36,863 nt of DNA from Zoogloeaceae bacterium (GTDB taxonomy: Bacteria > Pseudomonadota > Gammaproteobacteria > Burkholderiales > Rhodocyclaceae). Position numbers and translations under genes: made by a program. Within the stretch, counting starts at the first letter, position 1, and the number at the start of each line of letters is the position of its first letter. The notes below the pieces were generated by a model that was given only the letters and a program-made list of their open reading frames with translations, did no database searches and had not been told where the DNA came from. The stretch is from assembly GCA_016791025.1 (NCBI GenBank), contig JAEUNX010000065.1, forward strand, positions 1 to 36,863, read 5' to 3'. Shown piece after piece: positions 10,731-21,374 of this stretch.

Positions 10731-11036
10731 TTAGGAAATGGTGAAGAGCCGGCCAAAATTGGCAATATCCAGGACCTGACGAACGCTTCCCCGAGTATTG
10801 ATGAGACTGACAGTCTTGCCCGCACTCCGCGCCTTGTCTCGCGCCATCAGAAGCATCCCCAGCGCCGAGCTGTCGAGGTAGCCCACCTCACCCAAATCCA
10901 CCTGAATCTGTGGAACACCGGGCTGAGCCAGGGACTTTGTGATGGCATCACGAAATTCCCGGTGCGCATTAAAGTCAAAGCGCCCAGCCACTTGAATGAC
11001 GCACCGGTCAGATTCCGTCCGAACACTCACATCCAT
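10731..11036 (-). CDS. STAS-domain protein (anti-anti-sigma factor type)
   Basis: A 101-residue single STAS domain starting at ATG 11034-11036, with GAGG about nine bases upstream. The hallmark is VGYLDSSALGMLLMARD, with Ser in the position phosphorylated in SpoIIAA/RsbV-type antagonists. Such proteins bind a switch-kinase anti-sigma factor or act as a phospho-dependent adaptor. No partner kinase or PP2C phosphatase lies next to it. It is the last gene of the leftward chemotaxis operon, 46 bases after cheB, so it probably connects to motility or surface behaviour; that is inferred from position only. Confidence 0.88.
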   Translation of the reverse strand: MDVSVRTESDRCVIQVAGRFDFNAHREFRDAITKSLAQPGVPQIQVDLGEVGYLDSSALGMLLMARDKARSAGKTVSLINTRGSVRQVLDIANFGRLFTIS

Positions 11037-11082
11037 TTTGCAATCCTCAGTAATTAGACGCTGACAACCGTCTCCTCCGCAC

Positions 11083-12174
11083 CTAGGCCGAACGCCGATC
11101 ACCACCAGCCAGGAGACGATGCCAAACCCGAGAGGCAATGTCTTTCAATGGCGCGACATCCACTGCAGCGCCAATCGCATCCGCTTCCCTCGGCATGCCG
11201 TAGACGACACAGGAATCTTGATCTTGAGCCACGGTCCAAGCGCCAGCCTGACGCATTGCGAGCATTCCTAGCGCTCCATCCTTTCCCATCCCTGTCAGGA
11301 TCACCCCAAGCGCCTGGGCGCCCGCTTCCTTGGCCACGGAATGAAACAGAACATCCACCGCCGGACGATGCCGATTGACGGGTTCACTTTTAGACAACTC
11401 GCAAACCCACCCGCCACCACTGCGACGGATCGAAAGGTGCGAGTGGCCAGGGGCAAGGTAAGCGACGCCGGGCCGTACGCGCTCGCCGTCTTCGGCCTCC
11501 TTGACCGATATGTGGCACAGATTATCCAAACGCTTCGCAAATGATCCGGTAAACATTTCCGGCATGTGCTGCACGATCACGATCGGCGGCGAATGCGCGG
11601 GCAGGGCCGACAAAACTTCCCGAATGGCCTCGGTCCCCCCGGTCGAGGCGCCGATTGCGATCAGATGTTCCTGCTGAAGCCGAGGCGGTAACCCGGACAA
11701 ATGGGCCGCCGAGCTGACTTGCTGCCTTTTCTCGATCGATGACGAATGAGCGATCACCGGCGAGAGCCTTCGGACGCGCGCGTGCCTAGCGGTCCGAATT
11801 TTTTCACAGATTTCATGGGCATAGGCTTCTAGCCCCTTGCCCAATTCGATCTTCGGCTTGGCGAGAAATTCCACCGCACCTAGTTCCAATGCCCGCAAGG
11901 TCGTCTCCGAACCTTCCTGGGTTAGCGTGGAGATCATGACCACTGGCATGGGGCGAAGCCGCATTAGTCGCTCGAGAAACTCGAGTCCACTCATACGTGG
12001 CATCTCGACATCGAGCGTCAAGACGTCCGGATTCAGTTCCTTAATGCGGTCGCGCGCCTGAATCGGATCCATAGCGGTACCAACCACCTTCATGTCCGGC
12101 GCCTGGTTGATGACTTCGGACAGCATGGCTCGCATCAACGGCGAGTCATCACACACGAGAACCTTGATTGTCAC
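11083..12174 (-). CDS. cheB: Chemotaxis methylesterase/glutamine deamidase CheB
   Basis: A 363-residue CheB with an N-terminal receiver domain (VCDDSP acidic pocket, phospho-acceptor Asp55 in [12 protein letters not shown], Lys in FLAKPK) and a C-terminal methylesterase domain with the catalytic triad Ser177 (IGASTGG), His203 (VQHMPEMF) and Asp299 (GMGKDGA). Phosphorylated by CheA, it removes methyl groups from receptors in the adaptation loop, opposing CheR. Translation starts at GTG 12172-12174, 12 bases after the cheD stop. The linker (about 125-165) is basic and Ser-rich. All expected residues are present and the length is normal. Confidence 0.97.
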
Positions 12175-12186
12175 CGTCGCCTAGCC

Positions 12187-12807
12187 TCACCCGAAAAGTT
12201 CGATATCGCCGGCCACCTGTTCACCCCGCAACCGACCTTGGTAGGCGCGCTCGCGCTCGAACACCGTGTTATTCCGGACTTTGACGAGCTTCTTCATCAT
12301 CAATCGCCCTGACGCGGGAAAGTAATAGACCTTCCGCGGGTAGACGTCGAGCAGGTCCTGGGCCGCAATTGGAATGCGCTCCGTTGCCAAATATTCCAGG
12401 ACAAACTGGGCATTGCGTTCACCGACCTTACTTTGTGACAGGGTCTCCATTACGCGCCCACCCCCAAACACCTTAGCTTCGAGGTTCGCACGCCGAGCGC
12501 CCATCTTCAGGAGGTGATTCAGCAATACTTCCATTGCAAAAGCACCATATCGAGCCGAAGCCGACAGGACCCCGTCCTCACGCTCGGTTTCAGGCAGCAT
12601 GAAATGGTTCATACCACCAATCCCTGATTGCCGATCTCTGATGCATGCGCTGACGCACGAACCCAATACCGTGACAAGCACCATATCTTTGCCGGTCACA
12701 AAATACTCTCCCGGCAGCACCTTCACGGCATCGATGTTGAAGGTTCGGTCGAAGTAGAGGTTAGTCGCCAGATGCTCGGAAACACCCAGGCTGTCAAATT
12801 CCAGCAT
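12187..12807 (-). CDS. cheD: Chemoreceptor glutamine deamidase CheD
   Basis: CheD deamidates specific glutamines in chemoreceptors. I place the start at ATG 12805-12807 (206 residues), preceded by GAAAGAG and overlapping the cheR stop by 14 bases; the longer in-frame ORF would overlap cheR by about 100 bases without need. The core is clear: [18 protein letters not shown], then [14 protein letters not shown] with catalytic Cys51, and [10 protein letters not shown] with His68, followed by [19 protein letters not shown]. The C-terminus ends GDIELFG, closely resembling the GDIDLF end of the MCP-like protein at 19030-20226 in the same operon, which suggests a shared docking partner (inference). 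Confidence 0.95.
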
Positions 12808-13720
12808 CAGCTCTTTCGTAAACGGTTCGCCCCATGGATCGAAACAAATCGGATGCATGCATAAAGCTTTCCGAATGCCCTGCAAATAAGAGCCCATCCC
12901 GACGAAGCAGCGGCATGAATCGTTTCAAGATTCCATACTGCGTCGGTTTATCGAAGTAGATCATCACATTGCGACAAAAGATCACATCCACGGGTCCCTG
13001 GATAGGCCACTTGGCGTCTAAAAGGTTGATTTGGCGGAAGCTGATCAGTCTCTGTAATTCCGGTCGGACTCGCGCGTAGCCCGCCTGCCCCCCACCCCCT
13101 TTGAGAAAAAATTTCCGCAATCGATCGGCGCTCAATTTTTCAACTCGATCCAGGGCGAATACGCCTTTTTCACCGTGGGCGAGAACATTTGTGTCGATAT
13201 CGCTGGCGAGGATCTGGACGGGCGGGGTCATTGAATTGAAGGCTTCGCAGGCCGTCATCGCCAGGGAATAGGGCTCCTCGCCGGTGGATGCGGCACTACA
13301 CCAGATCTTGATTGGGCGCCGTTCGTTAATATTCCGCAGCTTGGCTGCCAGAATCTCAAAGTGATGAGCCTCCCGAAAAAAGGAGGTGAGATTCGTGGTG
13401 AGCGAATTGACAAAGGTTTCCCATTCCGTCGAATCCTGCTCTAGGCGACGTAGATACTGCGCAAATGTGGTATCACCGAAATGTCGCAACCGCCGGGCAA
13501 GGCGGCTATAAACCATATCTTGCTTGACGGGGGACAGAGAAATTCCTGCGTGTTCGTAGATTAACTTACGAATTTTTTCGAAGTCGCCACCGGTAAATTC
13601 GAATTCTCGGCCGTCGCCACCGTGTCCCCGCGGCATTGCGACAGTCTGGCCCGCAGACGCAGGAAGGGACCCGCCAATGCGAGCCCCACCAGTCGATCCT
13701 AAGTGCGGATCCCCAGGCAT
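12794..13720 (-). CDS. cheR: Chemotaxis protein methyltransferase CheR
   Basis: A 308-residue CheR that methylates receptor glutamates using S-adenosylmethionine. The N-terminal helical domain (about 40-110; [34 protein letters not shown]) is followed by the methyltransferase domain with [20 protein letters not shown] and [14 protein letters not shown]. The ATG at 13718-13720 starts one base after the stop of the MCP gene, with GGAAG upstream. The first 38 residues are low-complexity and precede the usual CheR start, so a later start (for example Met29) is possible, but it has no better ribosome binding site. Its likely docking site is the C-terminal DWEEF of the MCP encoded directly upstream. 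Confidence 0.96.
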
Positions 13721-16318: not shown

Positions 16319-18598
16319 TCAAGCGGCAGCACGCAGCCCCCTCGCCATGGCTAGGGTGCCGCCGACATCGATGATCAGCGCCACCTTCCCGTCGCCCATT
16401 ATCGTTGCGCCAGATATCCCTTGAACTCGACGGAAATTGGCTTCCAAGCTCTTGATGACCACCTGATGCTGACCTAGCAATCCATCGACAAACAGGGCCG
16501 CCTTACTGCCATCTGACTCCACGACAATCATGATTCCAATGCCATAGTCATGGACGGCATTGTTGCAGCCAAATAGTTTGTGCAGCGGAATTACCGGGAG
16601 ATACTCGCCCCGCACCTGGATGACGCTTTCCGAGCCTGCCATGGTGCGAATCTGACCTGGCGAAGGCTGAAGCGACTCCACGATATAGTTGAGAGGAATG
16701 ACATAGGTCTCGTCCCCCACAGCAATCGACATCCCGTCAAGGATCGCCAACGTTAGCGGCAAGCGCACTGTCATCCTTGTGCCAACCCCGAAGACCGATT
16801 CAATTTCGACCTTACCGCCCATCGCCGCAATGTTCTTCTTCACCACGTCCATGCCAACGCCACGGCCAGAAACCTCGGTAACCTGATCGGCAGTGGAGAA
16901 TCCTGGTTCGAAAATGAGCTGCCACACCTCGCTGTCCGTCATCGAGTCAGAAACAGAGAGCCCGCGTTCTCGCGCTTTACCGAGGATCTTGTCGCGATTG
17001 AGACCTGCTCCATCATCACTAACCTCAATGACAATGTTTCCGCTTTGATGGGATGCGCGGAGCGTAATCGTGCCGGTTTCCGACTTACCAGCTGCTTTGC
17101 GCTTTTCTGGCATCTCGATCCCGTGGTCGAGACTGTTTCGCACCAAATGGGTCAATGGGTCGGTAATGCGTTCAATGAGGCCTTTGTCCAGTTCGGTCCC
17201 CTCGCCAAGGGTCTTGAGTTCGACCTTCTTGCCAAGCTTTTGGGAGAGATCACGAACCACGCGAGGGAACCGCGTAAAGACCACCGAAATCGGCAGCATT
17301 CGAATTGACATCACCGATTCCTGGAGATCTCGAGTATTTCGCTCCAATTGACTGAGGCCTTGCAATAGTCGCTCATAGATCACCGGGTCCATTGTGCTGG
17401 CAGATTGCTGCAGCATGGCCTGGGTGATGACCAGTTCTCCGACCAGATTGATCATCTGGTCAACTTTATCAACGCTTACCCGAATCGAATTATCACCGGC
17501 TGCAGCCTTGGCAGCGGGTTTGGGACCGGGACGTTCCTGGCTGATCTTTTTTGCCTCTGCGGCGACGATGGGAGCCACTTTGGCCATTCCGACACTTGAT
17601 TCAGTGGAGCCCGCAGGCTTGACTCCGAAGCCGGACTGGCCGGCATTGAGTGTTTCCCGAGGCAGGTCCGCCGTCGCCTTCAGCTCATTGGAATAGGATG
17701 GCTCAACCACAATTGAATCAAAGAACCCATAGGCCTCGTTTTCGTCCGCAACTCGGACGACTGGAGACTTGCCAGAGCCAAAAGCCGCCGCGTCAAATAG
17801 GCCCCACGACTGGTCGGACGCCTCCGAAGGGCTGTTCGATTCACCGTTGGATTGACCGTCGGAAACCGACTCCTCGTCAGCGAAGAATCCGTATGCGGAC
17901 TCCACTTTTAATGCTTGGTCGGCCGGACAGACCGCCACGGTGCCACTTCGCGCAACGAACTCCATCAGCGAGCTCAGCTTTTCCGCCGAGATATTCCCAT
18001 CTATTCGCAGACGCCATGCACCGTCAGGTCCGGGTTCTAGGAGCTCAACGCCATAGATCCCGTCGCTTTCCCCAAGCAACAGCATTAGCTGGCCTTGGTC
18101 CTGAGCCACCGGTCCATCCGGAACAAAGGACACATCAAATCGGCTTACCTGAGGAGAAGCCGAACCGGATTCCTTGGATTCCGCGGCGCTCGTCACAACA
18201 CCCGGCTCCATTGCGGCACACAGCTTTTCCAATCGCTCTCGGATCTTTGCTGCTGCAACCTCGTCGGCTTCTTCCTCCCCGCGGTGCGCAGCGAGAAGGT
18301 TCTTGAGCACGTCCCCGGCAACAAGAGAAGCGTCCAGCATGTCCGACGTCATCGCTGCTTCGCCCTTGCGGATCTTGTCGAGCATAGTTTCGAGAACATG
18401 AGTGACGTCTGCCATGTCCGAAAAGCCGAAAGTTCCACTGGATCCCTTGATCGAATGGGCTGCGCGGAATATCGCGTTGAGATCTTCCGCCTCCGGATTG
18501 TCGAGATCGAGGGCCAACAACAGAGACTCCATGGACGCCAGGTGCTCGGCGGCCTCTTCAAAAAACACCTGGTAGAACTGACTCATGTCAATGGTCAT
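16319..18598 (-). CDS. cheA: Chemotaxis histidine kinase CheA
   Basis: A 759-residue CheA starting at ATG 18596-18598 (AAGGA seven bases upstream). HPt domain P1 carries phospho-acceptor His48 (FRAAHSIKGSSGTFGF). A small folded segment (about 152-230) may stand in for P2. The long linker repeats an aromatic-Gly-hydrophobic-Phe motif: YGFF (236-239), WGLF (265-268), YGFF (290-293). The dimerisation helices begin near 372 (IRVSVDKVDQMINLVGELVI), followed by the kinase domain with HLVRNSLDHGIE (N box), VSDDGAGL (G1) and GRGVGMDVVKKN (G2), and a CheW-like P5 at the end. It phosphorylates CheY and CheB. The linker repeats look like short interaction motifs and are the unusual part of the protein. 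Confidence 0.97.
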   Translation of the reverse strand: MTIDMSQFYQVFFEEAAEHLASMESLLLALDLDNPEAEDLNAIFRAAHSIKGSSGTFGFSDMADVTHVLETMLDKIRKGEAAMTSDMLDASLVAGDVLKNLLAAHRGEEEADEVAAAKIRERLEKLCAAMEPGVVTSAAESKESGSASPQVSRFDVSFVPDGPVAQDQGQLMLLLGESDGIYGVELLEPGPDGAWRLRIDGNISAEKLSSLMEFVARSGTVAVCPADQALKVESAYGFFADEESVSDGQSNGESNSPSEASDQSWGLFDAAAFGSGKSPVVRVADENEAYGFFDSIVVEPSYSNELKATADLPRETLNAGQSGFGVKPAGSTESSVGMAKVAPIVAAEAKKISQERPGPKPAAKAAAGDNSIRVSVDKVDQMINLVGELVITQAMLQQSASTMDPVIYERLLQGLSQLERNTRDLQESVMSIRMLPISVVFTRFPRVVRDLSQKLGKKVELKTLGEGTELDKGLIERITDPLTHLVRNSLDHGIEMPEKRKAAGKSETGTITLRASHQSGNIVIEVSDDGAGLNRDKILGKARERGLSVSDSMTDSEVWQLIFEPGFSTADQVTEVSGRGVGMDVVKKNIAAMGGKVEIESVFGVGTRMTVRLPLTLAILDGMSIAVGDETYVIPLNYIVESLQPSPGQIRTMAGSESVIQVRGEYLPVIPLHKLFGCNNAVHDYGIGIMIVVESDGSKAALFVDGLLGQHQVVIKSLEANFRRVQGISGATIMGDGKVALIIDVGGTLAMARGLRAAA

Positions 18599-18640: not shown

Positions 18641-19006
18641 TCAGCCGATCACTTTCTTGACGACTTCGATCAGTTTTTGTGGGTCGAAGGGTTTCACTAG
18701 CCAACCGGTCGCACCAACCGCCCGCCCCTGTTGCTTCATCGTGTCCGAGGATTCTGTGGTCAACATCAGGATCGGGACGCTCTTGTAAGTCGCGAGGCCT
18801 CTCAGGCTCTTGATGAGATTCAACCCATCCATCCGCGGCATGTTCTGATCGGTCAATACGAGGTTGAAGCCTTTTCCCTTTGCTTTGTCGAGGGCATCCA
18901 AGCCATCGACTGCCTCGACCACGTCGTAACCGGCACTCTTCAGGGTGAATGAAACCATCTGCCGAATGGATGCGGAGTCATCTACCGTAAGCACTGTCTT
19001 GGCCAT
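18641..19006 (-). CDS. cheY: Chemotaxis response regulator CheY
   Basis: A 121-residue stand-alone receiver. The acidic pair is in LTVDDSASIRQ, the phospho-Asp in LVLTDQNMPRMDG, the conserved Thr in LMLTTES and the Lys in LVKPFDP. There is no output domain, so it is the motor-binding CheY. ATG 19004-19006 is the standard start (MAKTVLTVDD); an upstream in-frame TTG is unlikely. It lies 23 bases after the MCP-like gene and 42 bases before cheA. The neighbouring MCP-like protein carries CheZ-like motifs and may act on this CheY. Confidence 0.96.
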   Translation of the reverse strand: MAKTVLTVDDSASIRQMVSFTLKSAGYDVVEAVDGLDALDKAKGKGFNLVLTDQNMPRMDGLNLIKSLRGLATYKSVPILMLTTESSDTMKQQGRAVGATGWLVKPFDPQKLIEVVKKVIG

Positions 19007-19029: not shown

Positions 19030-20226
19030 TCAAAAGAGATCAATGTCGCCGCCCGTGACCTGGGGCTGCATCACCGGATTGGCCGCCGTGCAGACGGCAA
19101 TTTCGTCAATCGATTGACGTATGCGCCCAACGCTTTGACGAAGGTGTGAAAGATCCGTCTGGCTACGCGCTGCCGAAGCTTCCATGGAGAACACCTGCAC
19201 CTCGTCCATCACCTGCCGGATGCCATTGAGGCGCGACGAGACGTGATTCAAGAGCTGGGACAACATATCCTGGAACTGGAGGGCAGTGATCGCGCGGCCA
19301 ACTTCTTGCTCTATTGTGCCGGCCGAGGCTCCGAGAGTTGCCAGAATTGAAGCGCGCTGTCTGTTCAAGCTGTCGATGTCGCCTAAGATCGACTCAATCT
19401 GGCACTTGGATTCCAGAGCAAACGTCATGTCGGTGGAAGCCATTTTGGCGATGGCATCCTCGGTCATCTTGACGCTAGAGCGCATCGACTGCATGACCTT
19501 TGCAATCTGCTGGCTGAATTGCCCCGTCCGATTAGAAAGGTCGCGCACTTCATCGGCCACGACCGCGAACCCTCGGCCAGCCTCGCCCGCCCGCGCCGCC
19601 TCAATCGCCGCATTTAGCGCCAGTAGGTTGGTCTGCTTTGCAATCCCACCGATTTCGCTCAAGATGGTTTCGACTTCATGGGCGTGCCGGGAAATCCCGT
19701 CGGTCATCTCAACCAGTTCCATGCCCAATTTGCTGTTGCCAACGATGCTGTCGACGACGCGCTGCATTACCGTTGAAGTGCTGGAAACGAACTGATCGAA
19801 AGTGTTGCCGTCCTCATTCGCCGACCCATCGGCAATCGATCTGGCGAGTTGCTGCTGTTCGGAAGCCCGCTGGTACATTCCGTGAAAGCTGGACGACAAC
19901 TGCTCGATCGCGCCACTAAGTACCGCCTGCACGCGCCCGATCTCGTCCTGTACCTTGTCCAAATGGGCCTGCAGTTCGGCCAAAACGCTCCTGACCACTT
20001 CGTCAAGATCACCTAAAGCCGATGACTCCTGAGGCCCCTCAGCACCGCCAACACCGTCGCTCTGGCTTTGTGCGGGTCTTCCCAGAATCGCCATGCACCC
20101 TGTGCCGACCAAAGCCGCAGCCACTGCCGGTGCATAAGCAGGGCTCCACACTAACGTCATGATCCCCGCCACGAGGAGCGCCCAAACACCTGCGAGCAGA
20201 TAGCGTGTTGTAGATTGACGGGTCAT
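19030..20226 (-). CDS. Membrane MCP-like protein with CheZ-like C-terminal motifs
   Basis: A 398-residue protein starting at ATG 20224-20226. Two closely spaced hydrophobic stretches (about 9-27 and 31-48) anchor it; almost no periplasmic sensor lies between them. A reduced MCP signalling core follows (about 150-260) with [20 protein letters not shown] and [16 protein letters not shown]. After it comes [14 protein letters not shown] (316-329), which resembles the CheZ active-site helix (FQDLTGQ in E. coli CheZ), with Asp320 and Gln324 at the same four-residue spacing. The protein ends GGDIDLF (392-398), like the CheY-binding C-terminal peptide of CheZ. It is encoded directly before cheY and no cheZ is seen in the window. 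I infer a possible receptor-linked CheY-P phosphatase; the MCP assignment itself is clear. Confidence 0.88.
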
Positions 20227-20281: not shown

Positions 20282-20309
20282 TTATCGACCAGAGGACGAA
20301 GCTTCTTTA
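20282..20309 (-). promoter_or_regulatory. Possible sigma-28 promoter for the MCP-like gene and che operon
   Basis: Leftward TAAAGAAG, 12 bases, then GTCGATAA resembles the FliA consensus (TAAAGTTT-N11-GCCGATAA), with the -10 half matching 7 of 8 and the -35 half 5 of 8. Its first bases coincide with the motB stop codon, and it lies about 55 bases before the MCP-like gene start. The one-base-longer spacer makes it weaker than the motA promoter. Confidence 0.4.
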
Positions 20310-21374
20310 GCCCCGGGGTTCGGCCCGATCCCGCCTATATCGCGGGACATAGTCCCAATTGGCGGAATTTTCCCGCACGGCACCCGATGCGTCGGCGGGA
20401 CGCACCTCGGTTGATGCATTAATGGACGATTCGACCGCCGGCAGGTTTGCGGAAGATCGAACTTCGACCTCGGATGGCGCGCGCAAGGCCTTTTCAGCTT
20501 TGCGATTGAGAACAACGATACTGATTCGCCGATTGATGGGGTCCGCCGGGTCATCCTGTTTGAGCGGGACGGTGTCCGCTAGGCCCACAACGCGAACAAT
20601 CCGATCTGCTTTCAGGCCGCCCGCGACCAATTCGCGGCGTGAGGCGTTGGCCCGGTTCGAAGACAGCTCCCAGTTGCTAAAACCCTTCTGCCCCCCAGCA
20701 TACTGGGATGCATCGGTGTGGCCAGAAAGACTCACCCCATTTGACACTTTATCTAGGGCGCGGCCGATCTCCTGAAGTAATTCTCGTGTGTACGGCTTGA
20801 TCTGATCGCTGGCCGAGTCAAACATTGGCCGATTCTTCTCATCGACAATCTGAATCCGAAGGCCCTCAAGCGTGATATCCATTAGCAGTTGGTTTTTCAG
20901 GGCTCGAAGCGTAGAAGACGCTTCGACGAGTGCCTCAATCTGGCCCTTCAGGTCCGTAAGGCGCGCCCGCTCCACGCGCTCTGCAATGGCCTCAGCCTCT
21001 TCCTCTTGAATGGATTTCGCAGGCTCCCGCCCCTTTGCCGCGTCAAGATTGACAGTTCGCTTACCGTCCACATCGCCTCGTTTCACTTGCCCGAGGGACC
21101 GGGTCAGATCCTCGCCCCCACCTTTGAGGATGCTAGAACTGTCACCCGCGCCAGACCCCTGATTCAAGCCTACTCGAAGCGGGTTCTGGAAGAATTCTGC
21201 AATCCCCTGGAGATCACCTTGTGCCGTGGAGCCTAACAACCACATCAACAGGAAGAACGCCATCATTGCGGTCACGAAATCCGCATAGGCGATTTTCCAG
21301 GCGCCGCCATGGTGGCCGCCGCCCCCCTTTTTGATCCGTTTGACGACTATCGGCTGTTGGGTATCGTCACTCAT
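20307..21374 (-). CDS. motB: Flagellar motor stator protein MotB
   Basis: A 355-residue stator subunit. The basic N-terminus precedes one transmembrane helix with the proton-carrying Asp32 ([19 protein letters not shown]). A plug/linker region follows ([10 protein letters not shown]), and the C-terminal OmpA-like peptidoglycan-binding domain includes [33 protein letters not shown] and NRRISIVVL. It anchors the MotA4-5MotB2 proton channel to the cell wall. The C-terminal 55 residues beyond the OmpA domain are low-complexity. It is encoded 28 bases after motA. Confidence 0.97.

Follow-up and report, generated by a model that had tools for sequence, protein, structure and literature searches.

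What does a receptor-like chemotaxis protein do if it carries, behind its signalling domain, what looks like the active-site helix of the CheY phosphatase CheZ? The question is raised by a stretch of 36,863 nucleotides from a Zoogloeaceae bacterium (assembly GCA_016791025.1, contig JAEUNX010000065.1; hereafter the window), in which an mcpA-like gene lies next to cheY in a chemotaxis gene cluster. The genome is an incomplete assembly (79%). The initial annotation had described the product as a protein like the methyl-accepting chemotaxis proteins (MCPs), with Asp320 and Gln324 within residues 316-329 and a GGDIDLF end, and translation confirmed this description. The gene and the parts of its product discussed below are the following.

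19030-20226, minus strand: mcpA-like gene, encoding an MCP-like protein of 398 residues plus the stop codon (translation; PF00015 match; relatives)
20083-20223, minus strand: two N-terminal hydrophobic helices, residues 2-25 and 32-48 (helices of the AlphaFold2 model; hydrophobicity judged by eye)
19534-19635, minus strand: MCP signalling tip, residues about 198-231 (conservation in the alignment; PF00015)
19240-19281, minus strand: CheZ-type Asp/Gln helix, residues 316-329 (translation; specificity of the motif)
19267-19269, minus strand: codon of Asp320, counterpart of the active-site Asp of CheZ (64/64 distinct sequences; hhalign register)
19255-19257, minus strand: codon of Gln324, counterpart of the catalytic Gln of CheZ (64/64 distinct sequences; hhalign register)
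19033-19053, minus strand: C-terminal docking-type peptide GGDIDLF, residues 392-398 (translation; disordered and of low confidence in the model)

Our preferred answer, which sequence comparisons make somewhat probable, is that a CheZ-like phosphatase has evolved from an MCP scaffold and that, in the window, it acts on the CheY of an F7-type chemosensory cluster. The MCP homologue would be anchored in the membrane, and its CheZ-like active site would have arisen in the stretch where the neighbouring MCP, an ordinary one, has a methylation site. On the four-helix stalk, Asp320 and Gln324 would orient a water molecule so that phosphate is removed from a receiver domain, most likely that of the F7-type CheY specified by the adjacent gene. 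The C-terminus, which is flexible and ends in a [DE][IV][DE]LF peptide, would dock the receiver in the manner of the C-terminal peptide of CheZ and the N-terminus of FliM, both of which dock CheY. On this reading the F7 CheY would have a phosphatase of its own, the mcpA-like protein, located at the array or membrane, and the canonical CheZ encoded elsewhere would serve the CheZ-linked CheY.

The only Pfam match of the window protein above the cut-off is the MCP signalling domain (PF00015, E 3e-30), whose tip is conserved across a 50-row alignment. An AlphaFold2 model built from 50 rows (mean predicted local distance difference test score 80.9, predicted template modelling score 0.46) was used for helix limits only. 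It comprises two short N-terminal helices, which probably form a membrane hairpin with no periplasmic domain, then helices 67-134, 140-352 and 356-381 and a disordered tail; the Asp/Gln motif sits within the long helix 140-352. A strict methylation consensus occurs once in the window protein (residue 104) and three times in the neighbouring MCP. In the latter, the stretch equivalent to the motif has a methylation consensus.

Relatives were collected with profile A1, made from 15 rows of the C-terminal part, which gave strong relatives in 53 of 150 family genomes (E up to 1e-18) and matches in 84 of 369 class genomes (E up to 1e-8); the named relatives come mostly from Rhodocyclaceae and Zoogloeaceae records. 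Alignment of the mcpA-like proteins (74 rows, 64 distinct, window protein included) showed that Gln317, Asp320, Gln324 and the terminal Phe398 are each present in all 64 distinct sequences. Gly393 and Phe318 are present in 63 each and Leu397 in 62; residue 395 is either V (33 sequences) or I (31 sequences). Part of the matches (30 per search) and chosen regions were fetched as loci, 80 of which entered the motif survey. The pattern F[QEG]D[LMIV]..Q[LVI] was found in 52/61 McpA-like open reading frames (ORFs) and 3/3 CheZ, and in none of the 66 other MCP ORFs and none of the 5330 unassigned ORFs (951,650 residues) of these loci. Eight of the nine McpA-like ORFs that lack the strict motif keep D...Q in a looser form with a neighbouring change, which brings D...Q to 60/61; the ninth is the N-terminal half of the stop-broken L162 gene. 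That mcpA-like gene (L162:9363-10661), located between motB and cheY, is split by an in-frame stop, through either sequencing error or decay. At an equal distance from the tip in the ordinary MCPs of these loci, 44 of 50 sites read A..S and none reads D..Q. A plasmid search with residues 288-398 gave no match at E 0.01.

Relatives can do without the receptor tip; where it is missing or altered, the motif and the tail are kept. In two genomes of one genus (L203 and L204), a 186-residue tip-less protein is encoded after cheB of an F7-type cluster and carries SLQFEDIVQQLILH and GDVTLF. In L203, 63 residues separate the first helix from the Asp, compared with a median of 215 (65 of 74 rows with the helix pattern). 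A third tip-less protein (L206; 207-codon frame, 191 residues from the first Met) carries LQFGDLVSQLLAHT and GEIELF, and its gene lies directly before an F7-type cheY. The protein at L218 has an altered receptor tip, yet LQFQDIVAQ and GGSIELF are kept. The genome of the window itself also encodes a 191-residue protein (L012:1366-1938, plus strand, contig C15), which has a D..Q helix, a KGDDIELF end and no Pfam match. This protein and its 19 family relatives all have FxFYD...Q and [DE][IV]ELF (20/20), and their profile aligned with the McpA C-terminus at an hhalign probability of 97% (E 1.3e-10). Outside these groups, MCP-like proteins of another cluster type (L221, L224 and L225), encoded beside other che genes, contain FQDRVSQ or FQDVTRQ and end in ITFF, VELF or IELF.

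The cluster of the window is assigned to the F7 type, the origin of the Escherichia coli chemotaxis machine, by its gene order, which on the minus strand reads flhC, motA, motB, mcpA-like, cheY, cheA, cheW, mcp, cheR, cheD, cheB and a STAS gene. Neighbouring genes were named by eye, and cheD additionally by PF03975. Those that matter here are as follows.

18641-19006, minus strand: F7-type cheY with its start set at MAKTVL; its product is the proposed substrate (differs from CheZ-linked CheY)
16319-18598, minus strand: cheA (named by eye)
12187-12897, minus strand: cheD, product ends GDIELFG (PF03975 match; tail survey)
20307-21374, minus strand: motB, upstream neighbour of the mcpA-like gene (by eye; order in relatives)
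10731-11138, minus strand: STAS-domain protein (anti-sigma-factor-antagonist type), after cheB (domain named by eye)

The adjacency of the mcpA-like gene and cheY, already pointed out in the initial annotation, was seen in the window and recurs in the family. In 19 of the 20 loci fetched from the 53 strong family matches, the mcpA-like gene, located between motB and cheY, ends at most 42 nucleotides from the cheY frame or overlaps it; the exception (L171) has no F7 cluster nearby. Comparison of 35 F7-type with 56 CheZ-linked CheY sequences revealed 21 near-fixed positions that differ. Phe14, Asn23, Ile95 and Tyr106 of E. coli CheY, residues with contact roles, correspond to positions in this set. 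These differences fit separate phosphatases for the two CheY types. We regard it as very improbable that the D..Q helix and the tail merely bind CheY at the array, to localise it or to act as a sink, and catalyse nothing: an Asp and a Gln that never vary (64/64), at a spacing of four residues and in a CheZ-like register, would not be required for docking alone. This idea draws on Comamonas CheY1, which, according to PMC6391922, self-dephosphorylates much faster than CheY2 and was called a possible phosphate sink, so that a catalyst might be superfluous.

The strict tail pattern stands at the C-terminus of 55/61 McpA-like ORFs, 33/36 CheD ORFs and 1/4431 unassigned ORFs, and in none of the other named ORF classes of the surveyed loci. 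Two of the remaining three CheD have GGEVELF followed by eight further residues and one ends in GQVSFL. Nine lower-scoring CheD from other cluster types include six with an IELF end (L220, L222, L225-L228) and three with a different one (L221, L223, L224). Taken together, CheD tails of the [IV][DE]LF type occur in the window (12187-12897, minus strand) and in L117-L176 and L209-L228, in F7-type and several other clusters. A degenerate DNA pattern for [DE][IVM][DE]LF matched the genome of the window 11 times. Three of these matches lie at the C-terminus or one residue from it, namely in the window protein, CheD and the 191-residue protein. Seven of the other eight were fetched: five are internal in some frame, one is in a 10-residue frame, and for one no protein fitting the tail pattern was obtained. 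The tail had been proposed in the initial annotation to dock CheY; a conserved C-terminal tail is indeed present, but it is not specific to phosphatases, as CheD of the same operon ends GDIELFG. Being common to CheD, it is a docking-type peptide of chemosensory proteins and not a hallmark of CheZ. Docking of the tail on CheY is plausible from sequence, and a receiver domain fits best as its candidate partner, because the tail is paired with the D..Q helix also where the receptor tip is missing and because FliM of the same genome begins MSDFLSQDEVDALLRG, similar to GEVELF or GDIDLF.

Several results weigh against a CheZ-like phosphatase for the F7 CheY. The first concerns sampling: the relatives were found with profile A1 or with patterns that contain the motif, and its invariance is therefore biased upward, although the cheY-adjacency counts and the tip-less copies are less affected. 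D...Q also occurs within 8 residues of the equivalent place in 3 of 50 ordinary MCP sites. Moreover, the resemblance to CheZ does not extend beyond the motif. The window protein has no CheZ Pfam match at E up to 10. Both profile-profile runs with hhalign set FQDMVxQL on FQDLTGQV, in the register read in the initial annotation, but the probability was 1.2% (A1 against A3) and 12.4% (74 against 54 rows), not significant beyond the motif. The second score was reached by 0/200 column shuffles and by 23/200 shuffles of seven-column blocks; the latter outcome means that nothing beyond the motif links McpA-like proteins to CheZ. For comparison, the scores against CheZ were 24.9 for McpA, 19.7 for reversed McpA and 13.1 for ordinary MCPs (47 rows), and the best CheZ alignment of the short family (score 22.3) lies off the motif. 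A Foldseek search of the PDB with an AlphaFold2 model of a tip-less relative (3 rows; the two scores 71.8 and 0.47) yielded 113 hits with E values of up to 10, none of them reaching 0.001, and CheZ was not among the best 50 of the 113. Membership of the CheZ family is not supported, there being no Pfam match and an hhalign score that rests on the motif. Since the likeness is confined to the active-site helix, convergence is as likely as descent.

A further point is that the organism has a CheZ. The statement of the initial annotation that cheZ is missing holds for the operon, as none was seen in the window, but a search of the genome found a canonical cheZ on contig C24 (PF04344, E 6.1e-76), where it follows cheV and another cheY. 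Absence of CheZ from the organism is thereby rejected. In the class sample, CheZ was found in 151 of 369 genomes and in 76 of the 84 McpA-positive ones (E up to 1e-8). Eight McpA-positive class genomes gave no CheZ match, four with FliM (G217, G250, G348, G467) and four with no FliM at E up to 1e-5 (G207, G231, G282, G395), and in the family 3 of 53 gave none (G006, G065, G089) and G077, G125 and G137 only weak short matches, draft assemblies being able to hide genes in all these counts. Among the genomes with tip-less proteins, both CheZ and FliM are missing from G282 and G395, and G472, the source of L206, has CheZ. We also observed that FliM gave no match, and CheZ no complete one, in five McpA-positive genomes (G006, G125, G137, G282, G395). 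In the regions fetched, all of these but G006 retain an F7-type che cluster, as though its function did not depend on flagella; G125 and G137 still have motA and motB, so that parts of the assemblies may be missing. Separately, weak PF04344 matches restricted to profile positions about 105-140 were seen in open frames roughly 190-240 codons long in at least 15 of the 150 family genomes (for example G137:C50:6324-6428, G128:C1:1777306-1777410 and G100:C19:103019-103123), possibly another short CheZ-like group.

Gene context outside the family raises the question of the substrate. Most class loci have no F7-type cheY next to the mcpA-like gene, which argues against an exclusive pairing: of the 40 examined, only 5 have one no more than 1.5 kb away, and in 12 of the 40 no CheA or CheD match was found in the 20-kb stretch. 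In the same loci, cheB lies within 1.5 kb in 21 of 40 and a STAS gene within 1 kb in 21 of 40. The low count of F7-type cheY weakens our proposal and raises the possibility that the CheZ-like phosphatase acts on another receiver, such as a STAS-linked regulator or serine phosphatase, and not chiefly on CheY. Proteins with a weak receiver match can indeed adjoin STAS (L135, L141, L200). However, cheY itself is the neighbour in 19 of the 20 loci of the family to which the window belongs, and the tip-less version at L206 stands directly before an F7-type cheY, so that from the sequences a different receiver appears quite improbable as the main target. At L141, a CheC-like protein (L141:6705-7334; named by eye) is encoded near mcpA, STAS and a receiver gene. 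Conversely, five loci (L209, L211-L213, L215) have an F7-type cheY beside which no mcpA-like ORF was found, which means that F7-type cheY can exist without the mcpA-like protein; the genome of L215 has a 53-codon remnant that includes the tail part. CheD keeps the tail in these five loci as well, and McpA as the partner of the CheD tail was rejected for this reason.

The main rival treats the protein as a normal receptor of the F7 array, though an unusual one. On this view [DE][IV][DE]LF is a variant of the pentapeptide that tethers CheR (or CheB), and the D..Q helix has a structural role. In its favour, the tail is like xWxxF except that I or V stands in place of W, and the MCP tip is conserved as described above. 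Published statements point the same way and add to the case against a phosphatase. Pseudomonas aeruginosa McpA was reported as a chemoreceptor for trichloroethylene taxis (cited in PMC7534058). A Vibrio cholerae review placed Mlp44 in System III on the basis of unpublished tests of methylation by CheR, and proposed the pentapeptide E-W/V-E-X-F as a CheR3 site (PMC11940527). Against this, the Val at the corresponding position in P. aeruginosa prevents interaction with any of the four CheR homologues (PMC7184735, citing another study). The tail is also carried by CheD (33/36 by the strict pattern), by tip-less proteins and by short non-receptor proteins, which are not known CheR substrates. Furthermore, a CheR tether leaves the invariant D..Q unexplained, and the single strict match to the methylation consensus contrasts with the three in the other MCP of the cluster. 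On this balance we consider a CheR-tethered receptor unlikely.

The group of proteins itself is known. By gene order and the described C-terminus, the window protein appears to resemble the McpA/CttP-like receptors of F7 clusters (PA0180, VCA1088), with which it shares an MCP signalling domain, a predicted membrane region, a gene in or beside an F7-type cluster and a conserved C-terminus with a non-aromatic residue at pentapeptide position 2 (Val in McpA according to PMC7184735, Ile here). It differs in that its gene lies between motB and cheY in a cluster led by flhC, motA and motB, whereas in the published scheme, as we understand it, mcpA-like genes are lost at stage 3, so that such a cluster does not fit (PMC7184735). 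According to the same paper, the role of the McpA C-terminus is important yet unclear, cheZ is confined to the F6 systems in organisms of stages 1 and 2, and early F7 forms have their own CheY and no CheZ of their own (PMC7184735). In the open-licence literature searched, as far as its text was available, we found neither a phosphatase role proposed for McpA-like receptors nor a tail common to CheD and McpA, and PMC7698151 has no occurrence of McpA, CttP, PA0180 or CheD; within these limits, the proposed function and the CheD/McpA tail were not met.

With CheZ (PF04344), the window protein shares the FQD-x-x-x-Q helix with equal hydrophobic spacing, a flexible linker, a short C-terminal peptide and a helical scaffold. 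It differs in its MCP scaffold, the lack of family similarity outside the motif, its tail (DIDLF, against VDDLLESLGF in CheZ) and its proposed target, a different CheY. The sensor phosphatases of the DxxxQ type (HisKA_3, e.g. NarX) also have an Asp and a Gln four apart on a helix and act on a receiver, but in those enzymes the motif comes after a kinase's phospho-His, and the window protein has no kinase domain. The CheD deamidase of F7 clusters has the same type of C-terminal peptide, G[DE][IV][DE]LF, yet it is an unrelated enzyme, with the D..Q motif in 0/36 CheD ORFs.

We tentatively put forward, as a possibility and not as the expected outcome, that the same holds across the lineage: McpA-like proteins, the tip-less mini-McpA, the 191-residue family and MCPs of at least one other cluster type may all be stalk-derived receiver phosphatases. 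They would share with CheD the docking peptide [DE][IV][DE]LF, so that a common receiver (e.g. the F7 CheY) would recruit both the phosphatase and the receptor deamidase. The observation itself, a motif and a tail found family-wide, is more general than the reading of a single sequence, and the tail common to CheD and McpA-like proteins (33/36 and 55/61 ORFs) is a second testable prediction. If a phosphatase on a receptor scaffold is real, it would account for an early F7 CheY with no CheZ of its own and for the conserved C-terminus of McpA-like proteins, and it would place the removal of the signal at the membrane.
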